Origin: Nitrospira defluvii
GTDB lineage: Bacteria > Nitrospirota > Nitrospiria > Nitrospirales > Nitrospiraceae
Reading direction: 5' to 3'
DNA length: 64,000 nucleotides
Assembly (NCBI GenBank): GCA_000196815.1
Contig: FP929003.1
Location: 2,689,501 to 2,753,500 of the forward strand
Shown here: positions 2,977 to 40,216 of the stretch, piece by piece
How the letters are laid out: every line of letters starts with the position of its first letter
Numbering within the stretch: position 1 is the first letter of the stretch
The notes under the pieces: generated by a model
What the model was told of the DNA's origin: nothing
Seen by the model: only the letters and a program-made list of their open reading frames with translations
Database searches by the model: none
Position numbers and translations under genes: made by a program

Positions 2977-4542
2977 TCAATGGCTTACCGCGGAAGCGGT
3001 TCGGCCATCAATAGGATTCACAACAAACTCCACGATAGCGTCGGCCAACGCTGGAACGGTGTTCTCTCGGGCCATCACCTGAACGGTGAGACCCGCCTCG
3101 CGGGCGGTCGCCGCGGTAATCGGTCCGATGCAGGCTACGGTCGTCTTCCCGACCGAGCGCAACAACTCGTCCTTCGTCGGAAACAACTCGACGAAGTTCC
3201 TCACCGTCGAGGAACTCGTGAAAGAAATCACGTCGATCCCGCCGGTACGGAGTTGTTCCATGAGGCGATCCGTCTCGACTGCAGGCCTGATCGTGCGATA
3301 GACCGGCACCACATCCACGTCCGCCCCCCGGGTACGTAGCTGATCCGGAAGCAGCTCCCGGGCCACTAACGCACGCGGAATCAACACGCGGGCCCCGCGC
3401 ATCTGCCGGGCGGCCAACACCTCCAGCATTCCCTCGGCTTGAAACTGCTCCGGAATCACGTCGGCACGTAAGCCATAGGCGGCCAGAGCCTCAGCGGTGC
3501 GCGGCCCGATGCAACAAATGGTGAGGCCGGACAATGCACGAACGTCACGTTGCGTCTCCAACAGTCTGGTCATGAATGGAGCAACCCCGTTCACACTGGT
3601 GAAGATCAACCAATTGTAGGTCGACAGACGAGCCAGGGCCCGATCCAGCGGAGCCCAGTCTTCGGGGGGTACGATCTCGATGGTCGGACATTCTACCGGT
3701 TCCCCGCCTTGAGCCGCGATCAAATCGGAAAACTCCGCCGCTTGAGGCTTCGGCCTCGTCACCAGAATCCGTTTTCCGAACAAGGGCCGGCGCTCGAACC
3801 AATTGAGTTGCTCCCGAAGACGCACCACCTCGCCGACCACGATGACCGTGGGCGGTTCCATATGAGCGGCCGCCGCCTTCTCCACAATATCGTCCAAGCT
3901 CCCCACCACGGTTCGTTGCGAAGCTCGCGTCCCCCACCGAATCAGCGCAACCGGGGTCGTACCCTCTTTACCTTCAGCTCGCAGGCATTGAACGATTTTC
4001 GGCAGGTTGGTCATGCCCATGAGAAACACCAGCGTGCCATGTACGGTCGCCAGGCGCGGCCATTCGACCCCACTTCGATCTTTCGTGGGGTCTTCGTGTC
4101 CGGTGACGAACGTCACCGTGGAGGCCATCGTGCGATGGGTCACCGGAATACCCGCATACGCCGGCGCCGCAACGGCGGCCGTCACACCGGGGACGACTTC
4201 AAATTCCAGCCCGGCGGCCGCAACGGCTTCCGCCTCTTCCCCGCCCCGACCAAAGACGAAGGGATCGCCACCTTTCAAGCGGACCACCCGCTTCCCCGCT
4301 TGAGCGTGATCGATCAGCAACCGATTGATCTCCGCCTGATCGCGATACTGCCCGCGCCCGCGCCGGCCGACATAGAGACGTTCAGCCCCTGGTGACACAT
4401 GCTGCAAGAGCGCTTCATTCGCGAGATAGTCGTACAGCACCACATCGGCCTGCTCCAGACATTCCTTGCCGCGTATCGTCAGCAACTTGGGATCTCCGGG
4501 ACCGGCCCCGACCAAATACACTATTCCTGCGCGCGTCGTCAT
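2977..4542 (-). CDS. cobA-hemD: Uroporphyrinogen-III C-methyltransferase / uroporphyrinogen-III synthase fusion
   Basis: Of 521 residues, about 1-250 form a SUMT domain (VYLVGAGPGDPKLLTIRG at the N-terminus, GGDPFVFGRGGEEAEA, and VVPGVTAAVAAPAYAGIPVTHR in parts). About 260-505 form a HemD domain (RILVTRPKPQAAEFSDLIAA; TSVNGVAPF; SFTSSSTVRNF). The fusion closes the tetrapyrrole ring and methylates it at C2 and C7 to precorrin-2, joining the heme, siroheme and B12 branches. It precedes the CBS gene and lies 5 bases after the hemC stop. HemD-CobA fusions are known in several bacterial groups. Confidence 0.94.
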   Translation of the reverse strand: MTTRAGIVYLVGAGPGDPKLLTIRGKECLEQADVVLYDYLANEALLQHVSPGAERLYVGRRGRGQYRDQAEINRLLIDHAQAGKRVVRLKGGDPFVFGRGGEEAEAVAAAGLEFEVVPGVTAAVAAPAYAGIPVTHRTMASTVTFVTGHEDPTKDRSGVEWPRLATVHGTLVFLMGMTNLPKIVQCLRAEGKEGTTPVALIRWGTRASQRTVVGSLDDIVEKAAAAHMEPPTVIVVGEVVRLREQLNWFERRPLFGKRILVTRPKPQAAEFSDLIAAQGGEPVECPTIEIVPPEDWAPLDRALARLSTYNWLIFTSVNGVAPFMTRLLETQRDVRALSGLTICCIGPRTAEALAAYGLRADVIPEQFQAEGMLEVLAARQMRGARVLIPRALVARELLPDQLRTRGADVDVVPVYRTIRPAVETDRLMEQLRTGGIDVISFTSSSTVRNFVELFPTKDELLRSVGKTTVACIGPITAATAREAGLTVQVMARENTVPALADAIVEFVVNPIDGRTASAVSH

Positions 4543-4547
4543 ACCAC

Positions 4548-5480
4548 TCAGGCCTGCCCGTAAATCTCCTTGAGAATCACGTCACCCCCATCGGCCAACA
4601 AGCGCTCCGCTAGCTTCGTCCCCAGTGCCTGAGCCTCACTGGCCGGACCTTGGATTTGATGGCGAATCACCCGACGGCCATCCACACTGGCCACCAGGCC
4701 ATCAACCGTGAGCCTGTCGCCCTCAAGCGCGGCATGCGCTGCAATCGGCACTTGGCAGCCGCCCTCGAGGCGATGCAACAGCGCGCGTTCTGCCGTGACG
4801 GTGATGCGGGTGGGCCGATGTTCAAATCGGCTCAACAATTCGCGCACGAAGGTGTCGTCGCTGCGGGCTTCGATGCCGAGGGCACCTTGAGCAATAGCCG
4901 GCAAACTGAGATGCACGGGAAGATATTCGGTAATTTCCGCATCCCAGGCGAGTCGCCGCAATCCCGCTGCGGCCAGCACAATCGCGTCGAATTGTCCCTC
5001 ACGGAGTTTCCTCAGGCGTGTATCCAGATTGCCGCGCAACATTTCGATGGTGAAATCAGGACGGTAATGCAACAACTGGGCTTGCCGACGCAGACTGCTG
5101 GTGCCGATTTTGGCGCCTGGCTTCAATTGGTCCAGCCGGCAACCGTCGCGCGTAATCAACGCATCCCGCGGATCTTCGCGCGGCGGCACGCACAGAATGT
5201 CCAACCCTTCCGGCAAAGCCGTCGGCACGTCTTTCATGCTGTGCACGGCCAAGTCGATCTCCTTGCTCAACAGCGCGTCTTCGATTTCCTTTACAAACAG
5301 TCCTTTCCCGCCGATTTTTGCCAGCGGAACGTCGAGGATCTTGTCGCCCGACGTCTGGATGCGCTGCAGCGAGATGGTCAGGCCGGGCGCAAGTTCCTGG
5401 AGACGGGCCTGCACCCACTGGCTTTGATGCACGGCCAGCTTACTACCGCGCGTACCAAGTATAAGTGTTGAACGATTCAT
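4548..5480 (-). CDS. hemC: Porphobilinogen deaminase (hydroxymethylbilane synthase)
   Basis: The 310-residue enzyme polymerises four porphobilinogens to hydroxymethylbilane. Key features are present: LGTRGSKLAVHQ at the N-terminus, HSMKDVP with catalytic D84, GTSSLRRQAQ, and GGCQVPIAAHA with C242, which carries the dipyrromethane cofactor. Size is typical. It is transcribed between hemA and cobA-hemD, in pathway order. Confidence 0.97.
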   Translation of the reverse strand: MNRSTLILGTRGSKLAVHQSQWVQARLQELAPGLTISLQRIQTSGDKILDVPLAKIGGKGLFVKEIEDALLSKEIDLAVHSMKDVPTALPEGLDILCVPPREDPRDALITRDGCRLDQLKPGAKIGTSSLRRQAQLLHYRPDFTIEMLRGNLDTRLRKLREGQFDAIVLAAAGLRRLAWDAEITEYLPVHLSLPAIAQGALGIEARSDDTFVRELLSRFEHRPTRITVTAERALLHRLEGGCQVPIAAHAALEGDRLTVDGLVASVDGRRVIRHQIQGPASEAQALGTKLAERLLADGGDVILKEIYGQA

Positions 5481-5565
5481 GCGTGACCGTCACTCTCTCG
5501 AGCGGCCATAGATGCCCGGTCACATGTGGAAACCAATCTGATCATGAAATTTCTCAGCGGCGGTG

Positions 5566-6972
5566 TTAGCTCACCCGCCGACCTTGCTCCTTGCTTGTGT
5601 GCGGGACCAGTGACTCCTCGGGCAGGCGACCAATTCCATTCCCGGCGATGTTCTCGTCCGGAAGCTCCGGGACGTCGGATTGTCCGGTCGGATACACAGC
5701 GGGTGTCTCTTCCAGATTGAAAAACCGGCGGGCCGCATCGACATACGTCGCGCCGCTCGAGGATTTGGCCTCCGCCTTTAACGTCACCATCGTGCCATGG
5801 ACCATCTTATTGACGATGGCAGACGCCAAGGCCTCCACCGCGGCTCGATCCTCAGACGACAGATGCGCCAACCGCGCCAGAATCTTATCGACTTCGCGCC
5901 GTTTGAGTTCTTCGGTCCGGCTGCGAAGCGCCACGATCGTCGGAGTCACCTCCAGCGACTGCAGCCACTGCCCGAGCACCGCGACTTCCTCAACGACCAT
6001 TTGCTCGGCCTTCGCCGCTTCCCGCAGACGGTCCTCACGATTTTGCTCCACTCGCATGTGCAGGTCGTCGATATCAAAGAGGAACGCATCATCAATGGGG
6101 CGGACAGCCGGATCGATATTGCGCGGCACGGAAATATCGATCAAGAACATGGGCCGACTCATCCGCTGGCGCATGGCACGCTGCACATCGTCGGCCGTCA
6201 CCAGGTAATGCGAGGCCCCGGTGGACACCAGCACAATGTCGGCCCCGGCCAGTTCCGTCTTATAGTCCTCGAATGGCACGGCCGTACCGTTGAACCGCTG
6301 AGCCAATTCCAACCCATGCTGGAAGTTCCGCGTGGTAATACGCACCTGGCGCACGCCGTTGGCGATCAGGTGCCGCGCCGCCAGCTTGGCCATTTCCCCG
6401 GCCCCGATCAACAACACCGTCTTCTCGGTCAGGTTCGAAAAGATCTTCTTGGCCAACTCCACCGCCGCATAACTGACCGACACGGCCGTCTCGGCAATTT
6501 TGGTTTCGGTGCGCACGCGCTTGGCCACCGAAATGGCCTTCTTGACGATCTTATTCAGCAACAGGCCGGAGGCTTTATGCGTCAACGCAACTTCGAACGC
6601 ATCCTTGATTTGTCCCAGGATCTGAGATTCACCGACGATCATCGAATCGAGGCTGGAGGCCACACGGAACAGATGGCCGATGGCGCGATCGCCGGCATGC
6701 CAATAGAGATGAGGCGTCAGATGTTCTGAGGAAAGGGAGAGATGGGTGTCGGCCAGGAATTCCTGCACGCGACCATACCCGGTCTCCAACTCTTCGACGA
6801 CCGCGTAGACTTCTACCCGATTACACGTCGAAAGCAGCAACCCTTCGCGCACACCGGGATAGGAACAGAGGCGACTGAGGGCTTCCCGGAGCCGGCTTTC
6901 AGGCACGGCGAGTTTCTCGCGGATCTCGACCGGGGCAGTCTTGTGGCTGAGCCCAACAACAATGACATGCAT
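5566..6972 (-). CDS. hemA: Glutamyl-tRNA reductase
   Basis: The start is placed at the ATG at 6972 (MHVIVVGLSHKTAPVEIR), which begins directly after the upstream stop. An ATG six codons earlier is possible but less like the family. The 468-residue product reduces Glu-tRNA to glutamate-1-semialdehyde with NADPH, the first committed step of the C5 pathway. The nucleophile C50 lies in LLLSTCNRVEVYA, and the NADP fold shows LLIGAGEMAKLAARHL. A C-terminal dimerisation helix is present, with a Pro/Glu-rich tail of about 50 residues. Confidence 0.96.
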   Translation of the reverse strand: MHVIVVGLSHKTAPVEIREKLAVPESRLREALSRLCSYPGVREGLLLSTCNRVEVYAVVEELETGYGRVQEFLADTHLSLSSEHLTPHLYWHAGDRAIGHLFRVASSLDSMIVGESQILGQIKDAFEVALTHKASGLLLNKIVKKAISVAKRVRTETKIAETAVSVSYAAVELAKKIFSNLTEKTVLLIGAGEMAKLAARHLIANGVRQVRITTRNFQHGLELAQRFNGTAVPFEDYKTELAGADIVLVSTGASHYLVTADDVQRAMRQRMSRPMFLIDISVPRNIDPAVRPIDDAFLFDIDDLHMRVEQNREDRLREAAKAEQMVVEEVAVLGQWLQSLEVTPTIVALRSRTEELKRREVDKILARLAHLSSEDRAAVEALASAIVNKMVHGTMVTLKAEAKSSSGATYVDAARRFFNLEETPAVYPTGQSDVPELPDENIAGNGIGRLPEESLVPHTSKEQGRRVS

Positions 6973-6973
6973 G

Positions 6974-7780
6974 TCAGGACACCGACCCATGACTTTTCAG
7001 GACGACACCGATCAGGGTCAGAATGACGCCGGCAAACCCGATGATCGTCAGATACGCGGCTCGTTTGGCCCGCCATCCGATGGTCAGGCGCCCGACCAGG
7101 ACGGCAAAGTAGAAGCCCCAGGTCACCATCGCCCATGTCTGCTCCGGGTTCCAGTTCACATAGGTGCCACGGACGATCTCCGCTGAAAAAGCGCCGCTGA
7201 TGATCCCGAGCGTCAGGAGTGGAAACCCCATCACAATTGACTGCTGATTCAAGTGATCGAGATAGTCCAGCGCAGGAAGTTTTGCGTAGAGGACGTTGAA
7301 CCGCTTGGACTTGAGAAGACCGTCCTGAATGAGATACATCACCCCGGCGACGAATGCGACGGCAAAGCCGACCGTACCCAACATACTGAGGGTGACGTGA
7401 ACCCACAGCGTTTTGAAGACCGGCTGTAGACTGGACGCTTCGTCGGAACGGAACGCCGCGGCGGTGACCAACGACACAAGCGCCAGTGGTACGATGAAGG
7501 AACCAAGGACATGCAACTGGCGGCGGAATTCGACGGCGAGAAACACGAGGATCAGCATCCAGGAGAAAAACGAGAGGGCTTCGTGAAATGTCGGTAGCTG
7601 AGCCTGAGCCGTGTCGGTCATCCGGGCGACCAACGCCACCGTATGGGTGGCAAACCCAACGGCCGTGATCCCGAGGGACACCTTCGACAGGGTTTCCGCC
7701 CGCCGGAGCAGATAAGCCAGGTAGCAGACCGTGCTCACGAAATACAGGCCCATCGTGAGCATGAAAAACACCGAAGACAT
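6974..7780 (-). CDS. CcsA/HemX-like cytochrome c assembly membrane protein
   Basis: The 268-residue protein has about eight hydrophobic segments and a tryptophan-rich stretch, YVNWNPEQTWAMVTWGFYFA near residue 200, corresponding to the heme-handling WWD-like region of CcsA/ResC/HemX. Conserved-type histidines lie in FATHTVALV, TFHEALSF and LWVHVTLS. It is likely to act in heme delivery for cytochrome c maturation (System II) or as a HemX-type regulator of HemA. The stop lies 1 base before the hemA ATG, so the two are probably translated together. Confidence 0.85.
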   Translation of the reverse strand: MSSVFFMLTMGLYFVSTVCYLAYLLRRAETLSKVSLGITAVGFATHTVALVARMTDTAQAQLPTFHEALSFFSWMLILVFLAVEFRRQLHVLGSFIVPLALVSLVTAAAFRSDEASSLQPVFKTLWVHVTLSMLGTVGFAVAFVAGVMYLIQDGLLKSKRFNVLYAKLPALDYLDHLNQQSIVMGFPLLTLGIISGAFSAEIVRGTYVNWNPEQTWAMVTWGFYFAVLVGRLTIGWRAKRAAYLTIIGFAGVILTLIGVVLKSHGSVS

Positions 7781-31174: not shown

Positions 31175-31302
31175 GCAGGATGCTCAAAACGACCTCGCAC
31201 TAGGCCGCAGGCGAGTCACAAGCGGAGGCGTACCCTCAGAGGGGTACGTTGAGGATTTTGACGAGCCGAGAACGACGCGGGAGGCCGTTTTCAGCAACCT
31301 GC
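31175..31302. repeat. Palindromic repeat family A, abutting the stop of a B12-type radical SAM gene
   Basis: It runs from GCAGGATGCTCAAAACGACC to GGCCGTTTTCAGCAACCTGC. The apex is CGTACCCTCAGAGGGGTACG, with TTGAGGATTTTGACGAGCCG. The last base is the first base of the stop codon at 31302. Confidence 0.87.
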
Positions 31303-33263
31303 TATCCGACGCCGTGGGAGACAACGCGACTCATCCCCTCTTTTCCCTCATCGCCTTCACCGATCGCCATCGGCCAGGTCACGAGACCAGAGACACCTTC
31401 AGCCGTCGTCGCACCGTCCTTCGTCGCCGCATAGATTTGCGGCAGCTTGTTCGTGCCGAACTTGGAGATATAGAGGAACACGTGCTCGCGGCTGTTCACC
31501 CGCACCGCCCAAGGGCTGAAGTCGTTCTTGTAAAATTCTTCACAGAGCTGCATCGCATCAAGGCAGGAAATGCCCACCGGCTCGTTCAGCGTGTAATAGT
31601 AATCCAGCGGCAGGTCGTACTCCTCCTGCTTGTGGATGGTGATGCCGAACTTATCCGGGTTGCGCACCATCGGCGTGTGGCGGTAGGCCACGAAGTAAAA
31701 CAGCTCCACGGAGTGAATCACCGGCTGGTTCTCAATGACGAACTGCCGCGTCTCCAGCGCCTCGTCGCGCGTCTCGCCGGGGAAGCCGTAAAACGCCATC
31801 ACATGGTTCCAGATGCCGGCCTTCGCCGCCTGATGCAGATTGTTCTGAATCACGCTCTTCTTTGCGTGTTTGTCCATGAGGTTCAACACGCGCTCGTTCG
31901 CCGACTCCATGCCGTAGTAGAGCGTGCAGCAACCGGCCTTCGCCGCCAGGTCCCAGACCGCCTGATCCTGCAGGGTCTCTTCGAAACGGATCAGCGTCGT
32001 CCACTTGATGCCGACATTCCGGTCCACCAGCAGCTGCGACACCTTCTTGAACAACGCGGGGGGATAGGATTCGTCGGAGAACAGGAAATGCCGGCACTGA
32101 TACTTATCCCGCAGGGCCGTGACCTGCTCGACCACATGCTGCGCCGTCATGCCGCGGTATTGATCGAAATACCCCTGGCCGTGATCGCAGAAGGTGCAGC
32201 GGCCCCAGTAGCAGCCGCGCGTCGCGAGATAGGGAATAATCCGCTCAGGCACGAAATAGTGATCCAGCGGCAAGCCCTCGAAATCCGGCAGCGGCAGCGC
32301 CGCCGTCTTCTCCGTATAGACTTCCTTGCTCTGCTGCACCGCGCCGGACGCGTGATACATCAGATTCGGCACGGACTCCATGGGACGCTGACCGTTCACC
32401 GCTTCGATGTACCAGAGCAACGCATGCTCGCCCTCGTAGAGGATGGCCGCGTCAAAAACCTCGGTGAAGAACCGCTCGTGCTTCGCCCATTCCTCCTGCA
32501 ACCGCGTCACGACATTACCGCCGACCACGACGTGGATGTCGGGAAAACTTTCCTTGATCATCTTGCAGAACGTGAGGCCGGCCATCAGCTGCATTTGCGT
32601 GCCGATGGAGATGCCGATCACCGTCGGCTTTTCTTTGCTCACACTGGGCAACACGAGTTGATTGCAGATGTCGCGATAGACATTCACCTGCTCGTCGTCG
32701 AGACAGGCGAAGACTTCCTTCGAAACGCCTGGCCGATAGCCCAGATTACTTTCCATCGGATAAAACACGAGCGAGGCGGGATAATAAGCCGCGGAAATGT
32801 ACTGCATCGCTTCGCGGAAGGTATTCAGCGCCCGCTCCAGCTTTTCTGCGTCGTAGAACCGTTCACCCCGCACAATGAGCTTCGCGTCCTCCGAACGCTG
32901 CGCCAGGTCGAACACGTCTACCGCATAGGCCTCTTCCAAGACGGCTTTCTGCGCGGCCTCCTGCTCCGTCAGCCTCCCCGCCTTTTCCTTGTCTTGCAGC
33001 GGCTTCAGCTGCATGCCCAGGCGACCCTTCACCCAGATCAAAAACTCCATGGTGAAAAAATGGTCGTACATCTCGATGTTGATGTCGCGCTGCACCACGG
33101 TGTGCCCCGCCTCCCTCAACACGGAGGTCAGCGCAGGCAAGGCGAGATAGGGCGCCGTCGGCACCCACTCGGGCGGGAACAACAACATGACCTTGGAAGT
33201 CTTCCGATCCTCTTTCCTGATCGGACTCAGACCGTCGATTTGGACCAAGCCGCTACTGCTCAT
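31302..33263 (-). CDS. Cobalamin-binding-type radical SAM protein, copy 1
   Basis: The 653-residue protein opens with a B12-binding-like domain (KVMLLFPPEWVPTAPYLALP, then VIGISIGTQMQLM and VVVGGNVVTRL). The radical SAM domain has C351, C356 and C359 in ATRGCYWGRCTFCDHG, a CX4CX2C spacing instead of CX3CX2C. A later TLYYGMESANERVLNLMDKH fits the barrel. Such enzymes do methylations or complex rearrangements; the substrate is unknown. It is about 160 bases downstream of its paralogue. Confidence 0.88.
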   Translation of the reverse strand: MSSSGLVQIDGLSPIRKEDRKTSKVMLLFPPEWVPTAPYLALPALTSVLREAGHTVVQRDINIEMYDHFFTMEFLIWVKGRLGMQLKPLQDKEKAGRLTEQEAAQKAVLEEAYAVDVFDLAQRSEDAKLIVRGERFYDAEKLERALNTFREAMQYISAAYYPASLVFYPMESNLGYRPGVSKEVFACLDDEQVNVYRDICNQLVLPSVSKEKPTVIGISIGTQMQLMAGLTFCKMIKESFPDIHVVVGGNVVTRLQEEWAKHERFFTEVFDAAILYEGEHALLWYIEAVNGQRPMESVPNLMYHASGAVQQSKEVYTEKTAALPLPDFEGLPLDHYFVPERIIPYLATRGCYWGRCTFCDHGQGYFDQYRGMTAQHVVEQVTALRDKYQCRHFLFSDESYPPALFKKVSQLLVDRNVGIKWTTLIRFEETLQDQAVWDLAAKAGCCTLYYGMESANERVLNLMDKHAKKSVIQNNLHQAAKAGIWNHVMAFYGFPGETRDEALETRQFVIENQPVIHSVELFYFVAYRHTPMVRNPDKFGITIHKQEEYDLPLDYYYTLNEPVGISCLDAMQLCEEFYKNDFSPWAVRVNSREHVFLYISKFGTNKLPQIYAATKDGATTAEGVSGLVTWPMAIGEGDEGKEGMSRVVSHGVG

Positions 33264-33420
33264 GTGTTCCTTCGATGTATCTACTCGCCCTCTGGCGTAT
33301 TATTCACAAACCGTCTCTCGTCTTTCGTGCAGCGTATCTCGCGAGAGACCAACGACGAGAAGTGGCGATTATCCTTCATGCGCTTCACAAGATACGAACA
33401 ACGGCGCTGCCTCCGGCCCC

Positions 33421-35319
33421 TCACATCTTTCCGGCCAAGGACGGCGGGACCGTGGCCACCCTCGCCGACCGGAACTGCAAGTCCGGCAGCTTCTGCAACC
33501 CGAACCGCGCGATATAGAGGAAGATATACTCCCGGATGAACAGCCGCAGATCCCAGCCGGGGTTGTGATTGCGTTCGAATTCTTCGAACACCCGCTCGGC
33601 GTCCTCAATGCTCAACCCCTGCTTCACGGTGAAGTAGTAGTCGAGCGCCAGGTCCCACTCGGGATTCCGATAGGCGGTCACACCGAACTTCTCCGGATGT
33701 TTCGCCACCGGATTGTGCCGCCCGAGGTCGAAGGTGCCGAACCCCAGCGAATGCACATGGTCTTTGTTCTGCTCCAAAAACTCCACCGACGACCAGGCTT
33801 CTTCCCGCGTCTCGCCGGGAAAGCCGAAGAAGCCCATGCAGTGGTTCCAAATGCCGGCCTCGGCGGTGTACTTCAGGTGCTTCGTCATGATCTCGGTCGT
33901 CGTCGCCTTGTCCATCAGCTTCAACACGCGCTCGTTCCCCGACTCATAGCCGAAGTGGAGATACTTGCAGCCCGAGTCCTTGGCATCCTGCCAGACCTGA
34001 TCTTCCAGCAGGCTCTTCTCGAACCGCATGTGCGTGGTCCAGGCAATGCCCATCTTGCTGTCGATCAGCCCGCGCGTCAGCTTGCGGAACAGCGCCGGCG
34101 GATAGGATTCATCGGTGAAATGAAAATGCTTCGCGCCGTACTTGTCGCGTAGATGCGTGATCTCGCCGAGAATGTCCTGGATCTTCTTGCTCCGGTATCC
34201 CGCCGTATACCCTTCGCCATGGTCGCAGAACTCGCAGCGGCCCCAGTAACAACCGCGCGTCGCCAGATAGGGAAGAATTTTGGTCGGCACGAAATACTTG
34301 TCGAGCGGCAAGCCGTCGAAGTCCGGCGGTGGTAAAGTCTGCATGTCTTCGGCAAAACTCGTCGCGGAGACATGCACGCCAGTCGCATCCTTATAGATGG
34401 TGTTCGGCACATCGGCCAGGCTTCGCTTCGCCCCCACCGCCGACACCAGCTGCACGAACGCCGTCTCCCCTTCATAGACCACGGCACTGTCGAAGTACTG
34501 AAACAGCGGCGACTGCGGGAGCACATCGCGCAGACGCGTGACCGTGTTGCCTCCGATCGTCACATGGATGTGGGGAAAGTGCTGCTTGATGAGGGCGCAG
34601 AACGTCATGGAGGAAAACATCTGCTGCTGCAAGACGATCGAGATGCCGACCACGTCCGGTTGCTCCGCCTCGATCGCCGGCTTCACCAGATGCTCGAACA
34701 CGTCGCGGTAGACGTTCACCTGGGTGTCGTTCACCGCGTCCATCACTTCATGCGACACAAAGACTTTATAGGAGAGGTCTGTCTCCATCGGCGGCATACA
34801 GATCCGTGCCGGCGCATAGACCATCGAGATCACGGATGTGACTTCACGGAATACATGAATAGCCCATTCTAACTGGTCGATTTCGTAGAAGACTTCACCA
34901 CGAATGATCGCCTTGGCCTTCTCCGCCTTCTTGATCAGGTCGTCGATCCGCTGGCGCGTCAGATCGCACAGCGTGAGCTGGAGATCCTGCTCCCATTCTT
35001 CCAGTTCGCGTTTCTTCGCCAGCTTGCGGAGCCGGTCGAGCTGCTGCGGCACCCGACGCAAGACCTTTTTCAGAAAGTCTTCGCTGAAGTACCAATCCCA
35101 CATCTCGAGGTTGATGTCTTTTTGAATGACCTGATGCCCGGCCTGGCGAAGCACGGCGGTAAGGGACGGGAGACTGAGATAGGGTTCAGACGGAAACCAA
35201 TCGGGCGGGAAGATCAACATGACCTTCATCTTCCGGCCGCTGGTCGCTTCGAAACTCTGACGATTGAGGAGGATCAGCTCTTTGGAAGCCCGTTCGCCCT
35301 TCGAATACTCCACACGCAT
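33421..35319 (-). CDS. Cobalamin-binding-type radical SAM protein, copy 2
   Basis: The 632-residue protein is clearly paralogous to copy 1 throughout: MKVMLIFPPDWFPSEPYLSL, VVGISIVLQQQMFSSMTF, ATRGCYWGRCEFCDHGEGY (C357, C362, C365, again CX4CX2C) and LHFGYESGNERVLKLMDKA. A long helical, charged insert lies at about 85-165 in both. The start at 35319 has AGGAG upstream. The tandem arrangement suggests successive steps in one pathway or a hetero-pair. Confidence 0.88.
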   Translation of the reverse strand: MRVEYSKGERASKELILLNRQSFEATSGRKMKVMLIFPPDWFPSEPYLSLPSLTAVLRQAGHQVIQKDINLEMWDWYFSEDFLKKVLRRVPQQLDRLRKLAKKRELEEWEQDLQLTLCDLTRQRIDDLIKKAEKAKAIIRGEVFYEIDQLEWAIHVFREVTSVISMVYAPARICMPPMETDLSYKVFVSHEVMDAVNDTQVNVYRDVFEHLVKPAIEAEQPDVVGISIVLQQQMFSSMTFCALIKQHFPHIHVTIGGNTVTRLRDVLPQSPLFQYFDSAVVYEGETAFVQLVSAVGAKRSLADVPNTIYKDATGVHVSATSFAEDMQTLPPPDFDGLPLDKYFVPTKILPYLATRGCYWGRCEFCDHGEGYTAGYRSKKIQDILGEITHLRDKYGAKHFHFTDESYPPALFRKLTRGLIDSKMGIAWTTHMRFEKSLLEDQVWQDAKDSGCKYLHFGYESGNERVLKLMDKATTTEIMTKHLKYTAEAGIWNHCMGFFGFPGETREEAWSSVEFLEQNKDHVHSLGFGTFDLGRHNPVAKHPEKFGVTAYRNPEWDLALDYYFTVKQGLSIEDAERVFEEFERNHNPGWDLRLFIREYIFLYIARFGLQKLPDLQFRSARVATVPPSLAGKM

Positions 35320-35442: not shown

Positions 35443-35513
35443 GCTCGCGCAACGCGCGGCCTCAGCAGGCCCTCGTTGGACGCACGCACGTAGGGAACCC
35501 GCCAGGCCGGCCC
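35443..35513. repeat. Direct repeat family B, left copy
   Basis: GCTCGCGCAACGCGCGGCCT then CAGCAGGCCCTCGTTGGACG and CCAGGCCGGCC. It matches the copy at 35925-35993 with only a few differences, in the same orientation. Weaker similarity extends about 35 bases further left. It ends just before the antitoxin-like gene. Confidence 0.85.
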
Positions 35514-35520
35514 TCTAGGA

Positions 35521-35796
35521 ATGGGAAAGAGAAGGCATAAGAAGGAAGCATCAGGCAGCCTTCGCCGTCAGCGCCGGCTCACCGCGCTCGAAGTGGATGA
35601 CCCGGGATTGTTCTTGCTGGCGCTACGAAATGTGGCGAATGCACAAGGAGGGGTCGCGTCGCTCGCCGAGAGAACGAAGCTGAATCGGGATAGTCTGTAT
35701 CGCATGCTCTCGGAGCACGGCAATCCTGAATTTCGAAGCCTCGATGCCCTCCTCCACGCATTAGGTTTTTGGCTCGCGGTTGCCGTCAATCGCTAG
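35521..35796 (+). CDS. Orphan HigA-like addiction-module antitoxin
   Basis: The 91-residue protein has a basic N-terminus (MGKRRHKKEA) and a helix-turn-helix near 40-70: LALRNVANAQGGVASLAERT then LNRDSLYRMLSEHGNPEFRS. This is the pattern of the HigA-type antidote family whose toxin is an upstream RelE-like protein. No toxin frame is seen on either side; the flanks are the two B repeats. It may be a remnant or a solitary regulator. Confidence 0.82.
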   Translation: MGKRRHKKEASGSLRRQRRLTALEVDDPGLFLLALRNVANAQGGVASLAERTKLNRDSLYRMLSEHGNPEFRSLDALLHALGFWLAVAVNR

Positions 35797-35924
35797 CCGC
35801 ACATCGCAGGGCATGTGAATGAGTTCCTGTGGCCAACAGAAAGACATCCCGGATGTTCGGTTACAAGACCTGACCCTAATTTTAGGATGGGAGATAGAAG
35901 AAGTGTGGCATGACAGTTCCCCGC

Positions 35925-35993
35925 GCTCGCGCAACGCGCGGCCTCAGAAGGCCCTCGTTAGACGCGCGCACTTGGGAAACCACCAGGCCGGCT
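35925..35993. repeat. Direct repeat family B, right copy
   Basis: GCTCGCGCAACGCGCGGCCT then CAGAAGGCCCTCGTTAGACG and CCAGGCCGGC. The hairpin GGCC/GGCC inside is shared with the left copy. The remaining bases between 35797 and 36044 show nothing recognisable. Confidence 0.85.
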
Positions 35994-36044
35994 TGCTAAG
36001 ATTCATCTGATGCCATGGAGCCCATCCTTCTCGCAGATCGCAGT

Positions 36045-38786
36045 TTACACACGACGGGCTGCAGTGGCGAGGCGACGAAACACTTGATTCTCCGCTAGTC
36101 TAGGCGTCAGCTTGCGAATTTGAGCGAGGGCGTTAGCCAAATCATACGGGATCACAGCTCCTTCGCTAGTTCCAATCGTCGCATCAAGAAGTCGTAAGAG
36201 GGCGGCTGCCTTGTCTGGACTGTTGATGATCCCAAAGTTGGGTTGGCCATCTTCTTCATCCCTAAAGCCATATTCGGACATAGACCAGCACTCGAAAGGG
36301 ACCAGAAAGCGTTCGACGGCATCCACGGCCCTCGTAAATTCCTCTCGCGCGGCTGAAGGAAGCTCAGCCAGCGCCCGGCTGATGCCTGGCGTTGTAAGTG
36401 AGTGCTCCTGTGGCCAAACTCTTTCAAAGAAAGGTGCAGCAGCGGAGCGAAAGAGTTCCTCGGGTGTAGGAGGATAAGGCTCTTCTTTACGAGGCGCAGA
36501 GCCCTCACGAACGAAACGTTGAATGGCTTCAGCTCCATATGCACGAACCTCTTCATCGAGCCCCCGGATCATCTGCTGGACGCTAACGTGGGGAACAGCC
36601 GGTTCGCGCCGCTCGTGAAACGCATGAAGACATTCGATGACGAGGCTGAAAACGAGTGACTGCCGGGTTTCCCTGCTAAGGCGGCGGTCGATAGCGCGCT
36701 TCGTCATCGCGATGCCGATAATCTTAAGAACATCTTCGAAATGGGTCTGGCGCGAAATCGCACTCCAAAGAGGTATCGCCTCTGAATCGTCGGCCTTTAG
36801 AGGCGCGAGTAGGTGTCGACGTGTCCAATCCGGGTCAGCAAGCAGGAAGTAGCGTAATTGTTCGATCATACGATGCAGGGCAATCAATCGCGAACGACCA
36901 GTAGCGGCGATGATTGCATCGCGCATCCTACGGGGTGCACTTTGAATTTCGAATGGGCGATCGTTTCCCTGAGTGTTTGGACATGCAGCCAGGAATACGT
37001 CGACGAGCTTTCCTGCTGGGGTATTCAACGTATCGAGGTCCACGGGCTCAATGTTACCGGCAGACTTCATTACCGTTGTGAGGTGAACATCTTCCTTAGA
37101 CGGTTGCTTGACGTTTGTGGCTTCAATAACGATAGGCCACAGTTTGAGCCAAACATTGAGTCCTTCAGGCACAGCGATGATCTGTCTTTTCCATCCATAG
37201 AGCCACTCTGAAATACCCTTAATTGCCTGGCTGACGGTAGTGTGCGGTAGCTTGGTGAGAAGCGACAGAACACGAGCGCTCTCCGCTTGCAGATCGCGCT
37301 GTGCTGCATTTTCGTTTTGTCCTGCTGCCGGTAAATGTGCCCAACCGAACCGATCCCAGACTCTTGCAAAGGAAGCTCCGCCGTCCGGGACGGATTCAAA
37401 ATCGGCAAGCACCTGGATGGGATTTCCAGACTGCTTGATCCAGTCTGCTGCCCCGCCGGCAGGACCTTCATCCCATCCTCCACGTGCTGACGAGAGGGCG
37501 GTCTCCAGAGCCTTCAAGCGCTCCTCACCAGTAAGCGAGTCATATCGACTATCCGGAGGTGGGGGGACATAGCCGGCTTTAGGAGATTCCAGAAAACCAT
37601 CGCCAAGCCTGGTCATCTGCAGCAAATCCGGGAACTTATGGATGTTAGAATCCATCCACTCCTTGTCGCGCTTTGGCAGCTGGGTTCCGGCAATCTCAAT
37701 TCGCCGCAGCTCCCGAACCGCCCAATAGGTCCGCGCGTTTTCAACGCGAGCAGCGTCAACGTTTCTCGGCCATTGATTACGAGGTGGGCGTTTTCTAATT
37801 CTGGTAGTGAGTATTGCCTGCTTATTGGTTTCAAGTTCCCCGAAACGCATTGCCCGCAGTTCAGTAATTTCAGGATACTCATGAAGATTCCAAAAGCGCC
37901 GATCGTCTAGTGAAACTAGCCAGGTGCCAATTTCACTGCTGGGCGTAACCCGTGAATCCTTCGATAGCGCCGCCCTCAGCCGCAGATGAATCGGCGAATT
38001 AGTGAACTGCCATCGACGAACGATTTCGCATGCGCTTGAACTGTCGACATTAACGAGTCGAGTCACTACTGCATGCAGAAGCTTTACTGATGGTGCAATC
38101 CCGCGGTGAAACCTATCGGGTTCGTGTGCTCCATCGGTACGTTCAGCAGCCGGCACATAGTAAACACGATGAAGCTGCCCGAGCCGCCACATGCGGTATT
38201 CTTCATCCCTACCAATGCGTCGAGCCATATCTAGCCCGTTCACAACAGTGAAATCTAGGGCATTGGCCAGAGACAGGAGGAAGGCACGATCAGTTAGACC
38301 TTCTAACTTGAGCATAGCAGGGTCAACGACTTCCCTGTTTGTTAGCCGCATAAAGAAAAGATCTTCGACCTTTTTCGGCCGTGTTGGCGGTTTTCTAAAA
38401 GCCTGATAGGAATCAAAAAATGGCTCTAGCTCGAGACGCGGCGCGACGAGTTCGACGATTGATGCGACAAGCGCCCCTGATCGTTCCCCCGCGCGAAGGC
38501 GATGCTGAAGAGCGTATATGCCGGTAGACGCGTGCTCTTCGGCTGCTGGATTATTCCAGCTTTCTTCGATCAGGCGCCACGCGGAGCGCCAGGGTTCTCG
38601 GATCTTTCTTCCATATGAACTATCGATTAAGTCGAGTACCGCCAAACGTTTGATGGTGTCGTTTGGTTTTAGATGTAGGGCCCAATGGACGGTCGCCCGC
38701 TCTTCAAGCCGACCATTCAAAAAAGCCATTGTGGCACGAAATGCTGCTCGATCTAATTCATTCAGATTCGCCCAGAGAGGCCTCAT
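36045..38786 (-). CDS. Large protein with DUF4020-like C-terminus, partner of SIR2
   Basis: The 913-residue product starts at the ATG at 38786, which overlaps the SIR2 stop by 1 base (TGATG). The N-terminal 650 residues look alpha-helical and repetitive (HEAT-like by eye) with no catalytic motif I recognise. The C-terminal 230 residues (FFERVWPQEHSL, ELPSAAREEFTRAV, FLVPFECWSMSEYG, ATIGTSEGAVIPYDL) resemble the DUF4020 domain found at the end of long single-chain SIR2 proteins. The combined length, about 1310 residues, fits such a protein cut in two. Codon use and GC are lower than in the neighbours. Confidence 0.7.
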   Translation of the reverse strand: MRPLWANLNELDRAAFRATMAFLNGRLEERATVHWALHLKPNDTIKRLAVLDLIDSSYGRKIREPWRSAWRLIEESWNNPAAEEHASTGIYALQHRLRAGERSGALVASIVELVAPRLELEPFFDSYQAFRKPPTRPKKVEDLFFMRLTNREVVDPAMLKLEGLTDRAFLLSLANALDFTVVNGLDMARRIGRDEEYRMWRLGQLHRVYYVPAAERTDGAHEPDRFHRGIAPSVKLLHAVVTRLVNVDSSSACEIVRRWQFTNSPIHLRLRAALSKDSRVTPSSEIGTWLVSLDDRRFWNLHEYPEITELRAMRFGELETNKQAILTTRIRKRPPRNQWPRNVDAARVENARTYWAVRELRRIEIAGTQLPKRDKEWMDSNIHKFPDLLQMTRLGDGFLESPKAGYVPPPPDSRYDSLTGEERLKALETALSSARGGWDEGPAGGAADWIKQSGNPIQVLADFESVPDGGASFARVWDRFGWAHLPAAGQNENAAQRDLQAESARVLSLLTKLPHTTVSQAIKGISEWLYGWKRQIIAVPEGLNVWLKLWPIVIEATNVKQPSKEDVHLTTVMKSAGNIEPVDLDTLNTPAGKLVDVFLAACPNTQGNDRPFEIQSAPRRMRDAIIAATGRSRLIALHRMIEQLRYFLLADPDWTRRHLLAPLKADDSEAIPLWSAISRQTHFEDVLKIIGIAMTKRAIDRRLSRETRQSLVFSLVIECLHAFHERREPAVPHVSVQQMIRGLDEEVRAYGAEAIQRFVREGSAPRKEEPYPPTPEELFRSAAAPFFERVWPQEHSLTTPGISRALAELPSAAREEFTRAVDAVERFLVPFECWSMSEYGFRDEEDGQPNFGIINSPDKAAALLRLLDATIGTSEGAVIPYDLANALAQIRKLTPRLAENQVFRRLATAARRV

Positions 38787-39979
38787 CAGTGATGCTCTCC
38801 ATCGCTCTCCGTAGCGATTGCGGCGATCACGTCAAGCCAACCGAGATCTGCCTTCTGTTTGGATGCCAGAACAGACAACCTAACACGCTCATTCACGTCG
38901 CTACGGCGGATCAGATGATCGAAAAGATCGCGGTCAGCATCGCTCGAGGCACGACGGCTCGATCGAACAATTCGCTTCACCTCGGCATCAACGAAGCTCC
39001 TCTTGCCGTTGATGGCTGACAGGGTTGCCCATCGCTCCAAAGTCTCCAGAAGCGCCACATGGTCATTGGCTGCATCGTAAGGAATAGGCGTGATTGCTCG
39101 ACTCCTCCAATCCTCCAGTACTATGGGATCGTTGTTTCCTTCGAACGTAAATCGTTCCTTGAGGTCTTCGAAGCGCGAGCCGTCTGCGGCAACGGCATTA
39201 AAAAGATATCGCATCGGAGGATCATTTGCGCGGTATCCGACGAGCACAAGATGGAACAGTCTGGCAGCATCGTGAATGAAGTCCGGCACCACACGCCGTC
39301 GAAGATAAAACTCTCCAAAATCATTGTCCGTGACGATCAGATCAGAGGTTCTGGCCGGATCACGGTCCAATACACCGTGGATATGAAGAACGCCATTGAA
39401 TTCAGCACTACGTCCTGGCCTTGGGATTCCTCCAAGGGCATATGTCTGGACAACCGGGCGTGCCCTCTTCGCAGCGTCCTCAAGGAGTAGGTCAAAGTTG
39501 GTCGTTGCGATCGTCACTACTCCACCACGATCGGCAAGACTCATCAATGCTCGGTGAATTGGAGCTGGCTTAACACCCGGAGTGCGCAGTTCAGTTGCTA
39601 CTGCCTGCCTGACTCGGCTCTTTCTATTGGAATGCCCGTCTATACGCCTTTCAAGCATTCCCAAGACAATGTCATATTCCTCCCGCTTGAACCTCACGAC
39701 TTCTGCTGCTTGTTGATTGGTCAAGCGAGATAGGTCCATATGTAAGTGACTGCCGCCTGTGGTCGGGATACTGTCGATGACAGCATACACAGCTGCATCT
39801 AGTCGCTCATATACTTTCCGTACTAGCCCACGGAAGTCCGGCAACTTCGCAGGTTGCGAGATACCTGCACCAGCAATAAAAAGAACCTCGCCTCGCGCAT
39901 GCGCAAGAAGAAGGCGTTCGGGAATAGAAGGCAGGCCGGAGCCCAGCGGAATGACTCGATCACTAGTCGCATTCACCAT
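38786..39979 (-). CDS. SIR2-family NAD-binding protein (likely defence NADase)
   Basis: The 397-residue protein has the SIR2 core: VLFIAGAGISQPAKLPDFRG (GAGIS at 37-41), ATTNFDLLLEDA (159-163), LHIHGVLDRD with candidate catalytic histidines 199 and 201, and LVLVGYRANDPPMRYLF. It has no zinc-ribbon cysteines of deacetylase sirtuins, as in the prokaryotic anti-phage SIR2 group that hydrolyses NAD. It is translationally coupled to the 913-residue partner. The ribosome-binding site is weak. Confidence 0.85.
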   Translation of the reverse strand: MVNATSDRVIPLGSGLPSIPERLLLAHARGEVLFIAGAGISQPAKLPDFRGLVRKVYERLDAAVYAVIDSIPTTGGSHLHMDLSRLTNQQAAEVVRFKREEYDIVLGMLERRIDGHSNRKSRVRQAVATELRTPGVKPAPIHRALMSLADRGGVVTIATTNFDLLLEDAAKRARPVVQTYALGGIPRPGRSAEFNGVLHIHGVLDRDPARTSDLIVTDNDFGEFYLRRRVVPDFIHDAARLFHLVLVGYRANDPPMRYLFNAVAADGSRFEDLKERFTFEGNNDPIVLEDWRSRAITPIPYDAANDHVALLETLERWATLSAINGKRSFVDAEVKRIVRSSRRASSDADRDLFDHLIRRSDVNERVRLSVLASKQKADLGWLDVIAAIATESDGEHH

Positions 39980-40216
39980 GTGGAAAATGACGGTCAGCCA
40001 AGGAGGGGCAGCATTTACCAGCTCACGGGTATTCTACCGAACCGGATTCTAGCCTTACTCCTGGCAGTTAACAAGAAACGGCCAATGGGAGGATCAAACG
40101 AGAGAGCCCCCAAGGCTGATCGCAATCCACAGCCATTCAGGTCTAAGCAGAAAAGAGACGACAGGCCGCATCACCACCTCAGGGCGGCATCCTGGCCCCG
40201 CGACGTGGACACTCTT

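Follow-up and report, generated by a model that had tools for sequence, protein, structure and literature searches.

The system described here lies in a 64,000-nucleotide stretch of the Nitrospira defluvii genome (contig FP929003.1, positions 2,689,501 to 2,753,500; the window, whose numbering is used for all coordinates below unless a locus is named). It consists of two adjacent genes on the minus strand. Gene 1 runs from 39979 to 38786 and encodes a SIR2 subunit of 397 residues, a predicted NADase (an enzyme hydrolyzing nicotinamide adenine dinucleotide, NAD+). Gene 2 runs from 38786 to 36045 and encodes a predicted alpha-solenoid subunit of 913 residues, which corresponds by homology to the central and C-terminal regions of the sirtuin Dsr1 and may serve as a sensor or regulator. 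The genes meet in the sequence TGATG (38784..38788, minus strand), where stop and start codons share one base and may couple translation. These two frames and their 1-base overlap, proposed in an initial annotation, were readily seen in the list of open reading frames (ORFs) and in the bases, and the lower guanine-plus-cytosine content it had noted was also recovered (0.528–0.547 across the four 1-kb bins of 36001–40000 versus 0.577–0.608 in the two bins on each side). DSR1 has been described as a single-gene system (PMC10973363). In homology and anatomy, the pair is firmly a bipartite variant of the DSR1 type.

The NAD-site motifs first noted in gene 1 (GAGIS, TTNFD, LHIHG, and GYRANDP) are all present. 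In Pfam, the protein matched SIR2_2 (E 1.3e-17), with SIR2 as an additional sub-threshold match, and it matched approximately the first 300 positions of the Dsr1 models of PADLOC (E 1.1e-49) and NCBIfam (E 3.8e-59). Asn161 of TTNFD and His201 of LHIHG, the catalytic pair, are invariant in all 25 rows of the alignment and are the counterparts of DSR2 N133/H171, which are reported to be conserved in DSR1 (PMC11087589). A sequence search of solved structures returned a single weak SIR2 match. The predicted structure (predicted local distance difference test, pLDDT, of 86) was nearest in fold searches to DSR2, ThsA, and KomC, with Z of about 20 to 22.5, the top value being for DSR2 chain 8wyb_A (262 residues, 3.1 Å). 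In this model, residues 327–395 form extra helices beyond the SIR2 fold. Since these helices end gene 1, the cut between the genes falls within the helical part, beyond the boundary of the SIR2 fold.

Gene 2 had no Pfam match at E ≤ 1. A homologue for the 913-residue protein was nevertheless found, as it matched approximately the last 370 positions of the PADLOC and NCBIfam Dsr1 models (NCBIfam positions 897–1262, E 2.4e-31). The C-terminus had initially been called DUF4020-like, and this assignment did not hold. The DUF4020 profile, PF13212, matched neither window protein at E ≤ 1, so the domain was rejected for gene 2; nor was it found by Pfam in canonical Dsr1, a protein from a related genome (locus L058) that scored 2112 bits on the Dsr1 model. 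In a PF13212 profile search covering four genomes, nothing in the window genome matched at E ≤ 10. The structure predicted for gene 2 (pLDDT 84) is an almost all-helical solenoid. Consequently, the helical N-terminus of the initial annotation stands, but helices are not confined to it and, in the model, make up nearly the whole protein. The predicted fold is a generic protein-binding scaffold. When solved structures were searched by sequence, gene 2 gave one chance-level match only, and the five sequences matched by canonical Dsr1 were all SIR2 proteins. Gene 2 had no match in the phage collection, and none of the 34 pattern stretches on viral contigs encoded a relative of it.

The Dsr1 models thus match complementary ends, with their N-terminal part in gene 1 and their C-terminal part in gene 2. 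We compared profiles of 25 SIR2 sequences and 36 gene 2 sequences with a profile of nine single-chain Dsr1-like proteins, using hhalign. The SIR2 profile aligned with single-chain columns 12–307 (E 2.2e-52), and residues 21–907 of the gene 2 profile aligned with columns 448–1264 (806 columns, E 1.2e-45, 19% identity). The combined length of the pair is 1310 residues, compared with 1263 Dsr1 model positions. The profiles are collinear with the single-chain proteins, and therefore the order and length of the pair are those of one Dsr1 chain cut in two. A fused relative, L045 from a Rhodospirillales bin, has one frame across the junction (1313 codons, start codon not determined). By BLASTP, SIR2 residues 5–397 aligned with its residues 17–424 (50% identity), and gene 2 residues 15–911 with 425–1312 (33%). 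Dsr1 models, collinear profiles, this fusion, and the co-occurrence described below all agree with the initial proposal of a naturally split form of a single-chain SIR2 protein. The accompanying expectation, that single-chain homologues would align end to end, was borne out across the junction by L045 but not by canonical Dsr1, which is unalignable around the cut. As a separate observation, a Dsr2 gene directly follows the fused relative (L045 7775–11668; PADLOC E 4.9e-168), placing a DSR1-like gene beside DSR2.

The two-gene arrangement is conserved. Relatives of gene 2 were found at 44 loci in genome contigs, with SIR2 directly upstream at 41, fused at one (L045), and cut off at two (L036 and L041, which start inside gene 2 at the contig end). 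Adding five plasmid loci (L007–L011) brings the number of split loci, not counting the window, to 46, among which there are near copies (L007/L029; L010/L011/L052/L055). The two genes therefore do co-occur in other genomes, as had been anticipated. The junction is a 4-base overlap, a 1-base overlap, or a gap of 0–1 base in 45 of the 46 (27, 8, and 10 loci, respectively). These figures come from a scripted count, which gave four-base overlaps at 25 loci, one-base overlaps at 8, one-base gaps at 5, a zero gap at 1, and implausible starts at the remaining 7. The implausible starts were then read by eye; L027 and L056 proved to be four-base overlaps, L010, L011, L052, and L055 have a GTG 1 base after the stop, and L026 was left unassigned. 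Taxa with gene 2 include Nitrospirota, Pseudomonadota, Thermodesulfobacteriota, Chlorobiota, and Chloroflexi, and metagenome bins account for many of the records.

On plasmids, SIR2 matched 59 records, and among the 40 listed, the six with more than 40% identity are the same six in which at least 80% of gene 2 is covered. Gene 2 matched 15 plasmid records, namely the five split loci that were fetched, a sixth that was not (NZ_KY000060), eight of the single-chain type, and a remnant, L013, which was not counted. Within the phylum of the window, gene 2 matched five of 245 genomes; the match was full length only in the window genome and in G123, where it contains an internal stop. The Dsr1 model matched seven of these 245 genomes, compared with none of 14 control genomes. 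Dsr1 is also broken up in other ways in some relatives. In L074 (genome G240, 3929–7764), it occupies two frames (733 and 545 residues) that overlap in ATGA and are cut elsewhere than the window pair; a frameshift is possible there because the site lies within an A-rich run. Short frames of 624 and 589 residues are seen in G312 and G314. A member of the same genus (L073, genome G224) has Dsr1 only as fragments, one of them with stops, as in a decaying gene.

Both genes are under purifying selection. The ratio of nonsynonymous to synonymous divergence (dN/dS), which is defined for 14 of the 15 pairs compared, is 0.040–0.412 for SIR2 and 0.105–0.317 for gene 2. The dN of gene 2 exceeded that of SIR2 in all 15 pairs, as expected of a phage-facing sensor. 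The tree comprised 41 split rows, one fused row, and 11 single-chain rows, one of the latter being the Dsr2 next to the fused relative (L045b). Left out were L011, L017, and L039, where gene 2 is interrupted; L055, L056, and L057, where the alignment ends early; and L036 and L041, which have no SIR2 on the contig. In the free tree, the fused L045 fell between two split clades with a support of 97. A single clade of all 41 split rows was not rejected by the approximately unbiased test (p-AU 0.08; 41 rows against 9, omitting L045b, L079, and L081, the last two being long rows). One split followed by re-fusion, two splits, and L045 as an unsplit sister are all compatible histories.

Among known systems, the pair shares with Dsr1 (NCBIfam NF041818, PADLOC Dsr1) the N-terminal SIR2 with its Asn/His pair, the long helical C-terminal region, the domain order, and the total length. 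It differs in being two genes with a conserved overlap and, from canonical Dsr1, in lacking detectable junction similarity and in scoring far below the equivalog cut-off. Like DSR2, it has a SIR2 fold (8wyb) followed by a helical region; unlike DSR2, which is one chain, neither window protein had a PADLOC Dsr2 match at E ≤ 1. The fused relative aligns end to end with both window proteins but is a single frame beside a Dsr2 gene. A separate SIR2 protein is also found in SIR2-HerA (Nezha) and KomBC, and the folds are similar (Z of about 21 for KomC and 13 for HerA-SIR2). Here, however, the partner is an alpha-solenoid that Pfam does not match; for a HerA ATPase, there was no Pfam match in the 913-residue protein and no PADLOC match other than Dsr1. 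The SLOG domain of Thoeris ThsA was not matched in gene 1 (Pfam, E ≤ 1), and weak ThsA matches cover the SIR2 part only.

The module lies in a variable stretch (35559..40096) whose flanks, to the left up to about 35.5–36.0 kb depending on the genome and to the right from 40,097, are common to three of the five related genomes fetched (G121, G127, and G091). These carry other DNA in place of the module; it includes, in G127, a type IV restriction enzyme (E 2.6e-90); in G091, helicase genes resembling MkoC/PDC-S37; and in G121, a subtilase. The other two, G169 and G208, matched only right-hand pieces. Next to the module, and probably outside it, is a helix-turn-helix (HTH) antitoxin-like gene (35521..35796, plus strand), which scored above the cut-off of 27 for PF21716 dnstrm_HI1420 (41 bits, E 1.8e-10) and below that of 53.7 for TIGR02684 (48.9 bits, E 5.8e-13). 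It had been called an orphan, and no obvious toxin stands beside it in the ORF list, in which small neighboring ORFs were not searched singly. The direct repeats also noted initially are present as a 57-nucleotide pair flanking this gene (35443–35499 and 35925–35981, 89%). The repeat is dispersed, with eight matches in the genome including both window copies and similar copies at the same variable site in related genomes, and therefore is no mark of the module. Further out, at 31302–35319, two genes for B12-binding radical SAM proteins lie side by side, and their counterparts cross-match at approximately 70% DNA identity. The two genes are nearest to the families of C-methyltransferases for ribosomally synthesized and post-translationally modified peptides and of PhpK P-methyltransferases, well under the cut-offs.

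To place the relatives in context, 97 of 192 listed neighboring ORFs from 21 loci were scanned with PADLOC. At E ≤ 1e-15, 116 families matched, and the 25 listed include Gabija, Zorya, TIR-pAgo, a MADS mad3-like domain, and Dsr2. Ten large neighbors were rescanned singly, and four matched (GajA in L049, ZorA in L029, the TIR partner of pAgo in L046, and a mad3-like protein in L054). With the Dsr2 of L045, defense genes adjoin at least five of the 21 loci. The suggestion of a defense island is thus moderately supported by a variable stretch that holds different cargo in three of the related genomes and by the defense genes near some relatives, but matched control loci were not part of the comparison.

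We consider it likely that the window pair is a DSR1-like NADase built from two subunits, of which one is a separate sensor, and so a variant of the defense-associated sirtuins. Gene 1 would supply the SIR2 NADase and the initial helices of the regulatory part, and gene 2 the remainder of the Dsr1 chain as a long alpha-solenoid. The overlapping stop and start probably couple translation; the subunits would therefore be made in a fixed ratio and assemble into a complex. For DSR2, it is reported that the C-terminal region binds a phage tail tube protein and thereby turns on the SIR2 NADase, and that, on its own, the SIR2 domain leaves NAD+ intact (PMC10973363). By analogy with DSR2, gene 2 probably acts here as scaffold and sensor, and gene 1 as NADase. 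The solenoid would keep the SIR2 subunits in an inactive assembly until it binds a phage-made protein, upon which the SIR2 sites would open, NAD+ would be hydrolyzed, and phage production would stop. This outcome need not be suicide, since phage inhibition by DSR1 reportedly leaves the cell alive (PMC10952713). Physical association, coupling, enzymatic activity, a phage trigger, and the role in defense are all inferred.

Several results weigh against this interpretation. The NCBIfam Dsr1 scores of the two proteins, 200.5 and 108.4 bits, are far under the cut-off of 1400; six single-chain relatives that were scanned (232–400 bits) also fall below it. Residues 313–423 of canonical Dsr1 are not aligned with the approximately 77 residues between the aligned blocks of the split pair, and continuity at the junction depends on L045, a single metagenome-assembled relative. 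The model of gene 2 has a predicted template modeling score (pTM) of only 0.54 and matches generic HEAT/ARM solenoids such as karyopherins and CAND1, with no DSR2 chain among the best 50 matches listed for each of its fold searches. In gene 1, residue 250 (39230–39232) is Arg, in GYRANDP, where 24 of 24 aligned relatives carry Ser (GYS), so this copy may have a weakened NAD site or altered activity. As for the neighbors, six of the ten large ones rescanned singly had no PADLOC match at E ≤ 1e-15, in a scan that had no matched control loci.

Alternatively, gene 2 could be an unrelated solenoid that resembles the Dsr1 C-terminus, in an independent SIR2 two-gene system such as SIR2-HerA. Sequence identity between gene 2 and the single-chain profile is low, and alpha-solenoids readily match one another in fold searches. 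We nonetheless regard this as improbable, given a collinear match over 806 columns, Dsr1 models from two libraries (not necessarily independent) that find gene 2, and the existence of a single-chain fusion. Even less credible is that the split is a frameshift, a sequencing artefact, or a decaying single-chain pseudogene. Broken relatives do occur: gene 2 is interrupted in three loci, its open frame in L027 starts only downstream of the junction, and G224 retains fragments alone. However, the same two genes stand in 46 further loci, nearly all tightly joined, purifying selection acts on both, and the window genome is a single contig of 4,317,083 bases that is 99.97% complete.

A role other than phage defense, such as NAD-dependent regulation or plasmid competition, seems to us the least implausible of these alternatives, but still unlikely. 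The split-pair clade is not known to have been tested against phage, and six full-length copies are on plasmids. Set against this are the defense genes beside some relatives and a SIR2 model nearest to antiphage NADases, and the nearest studied relatives, DSR1, DSR2, and ThsA, are antiphage (PMC10973363, PMC10952713).

If the two-subunit, DSR1-like NADase is the correct reading, what appears to be new, judged from sequence, is a conserved two-gene form, spread across several phyla, of an otherwise single-gene DSR1-type sirtuin. In an incomplete search that covered parts of the literature and no supplements, we found no mention of a split DSR1. The split class is probably under-counted in defense surveys, because the Dsr1 model gives two partial matches below its cut-off. 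We would tentatively go further, although we hold this to be somewhat doubtful, and suggest a widespread bipartite DSR class in which activation is a changed subunit association. SIR2 may be released from the solenoid or assembled by it, perhaps into filaments as for ThsA and KomC, and the faster-evolving sensor may be exchangeable by recombination as the enzyme is kept. A natural cut at one conserved place identifies a position at which the chain tolerates interruption while selection still maintains it, and the split would allow each half to be purified and mutated alone.

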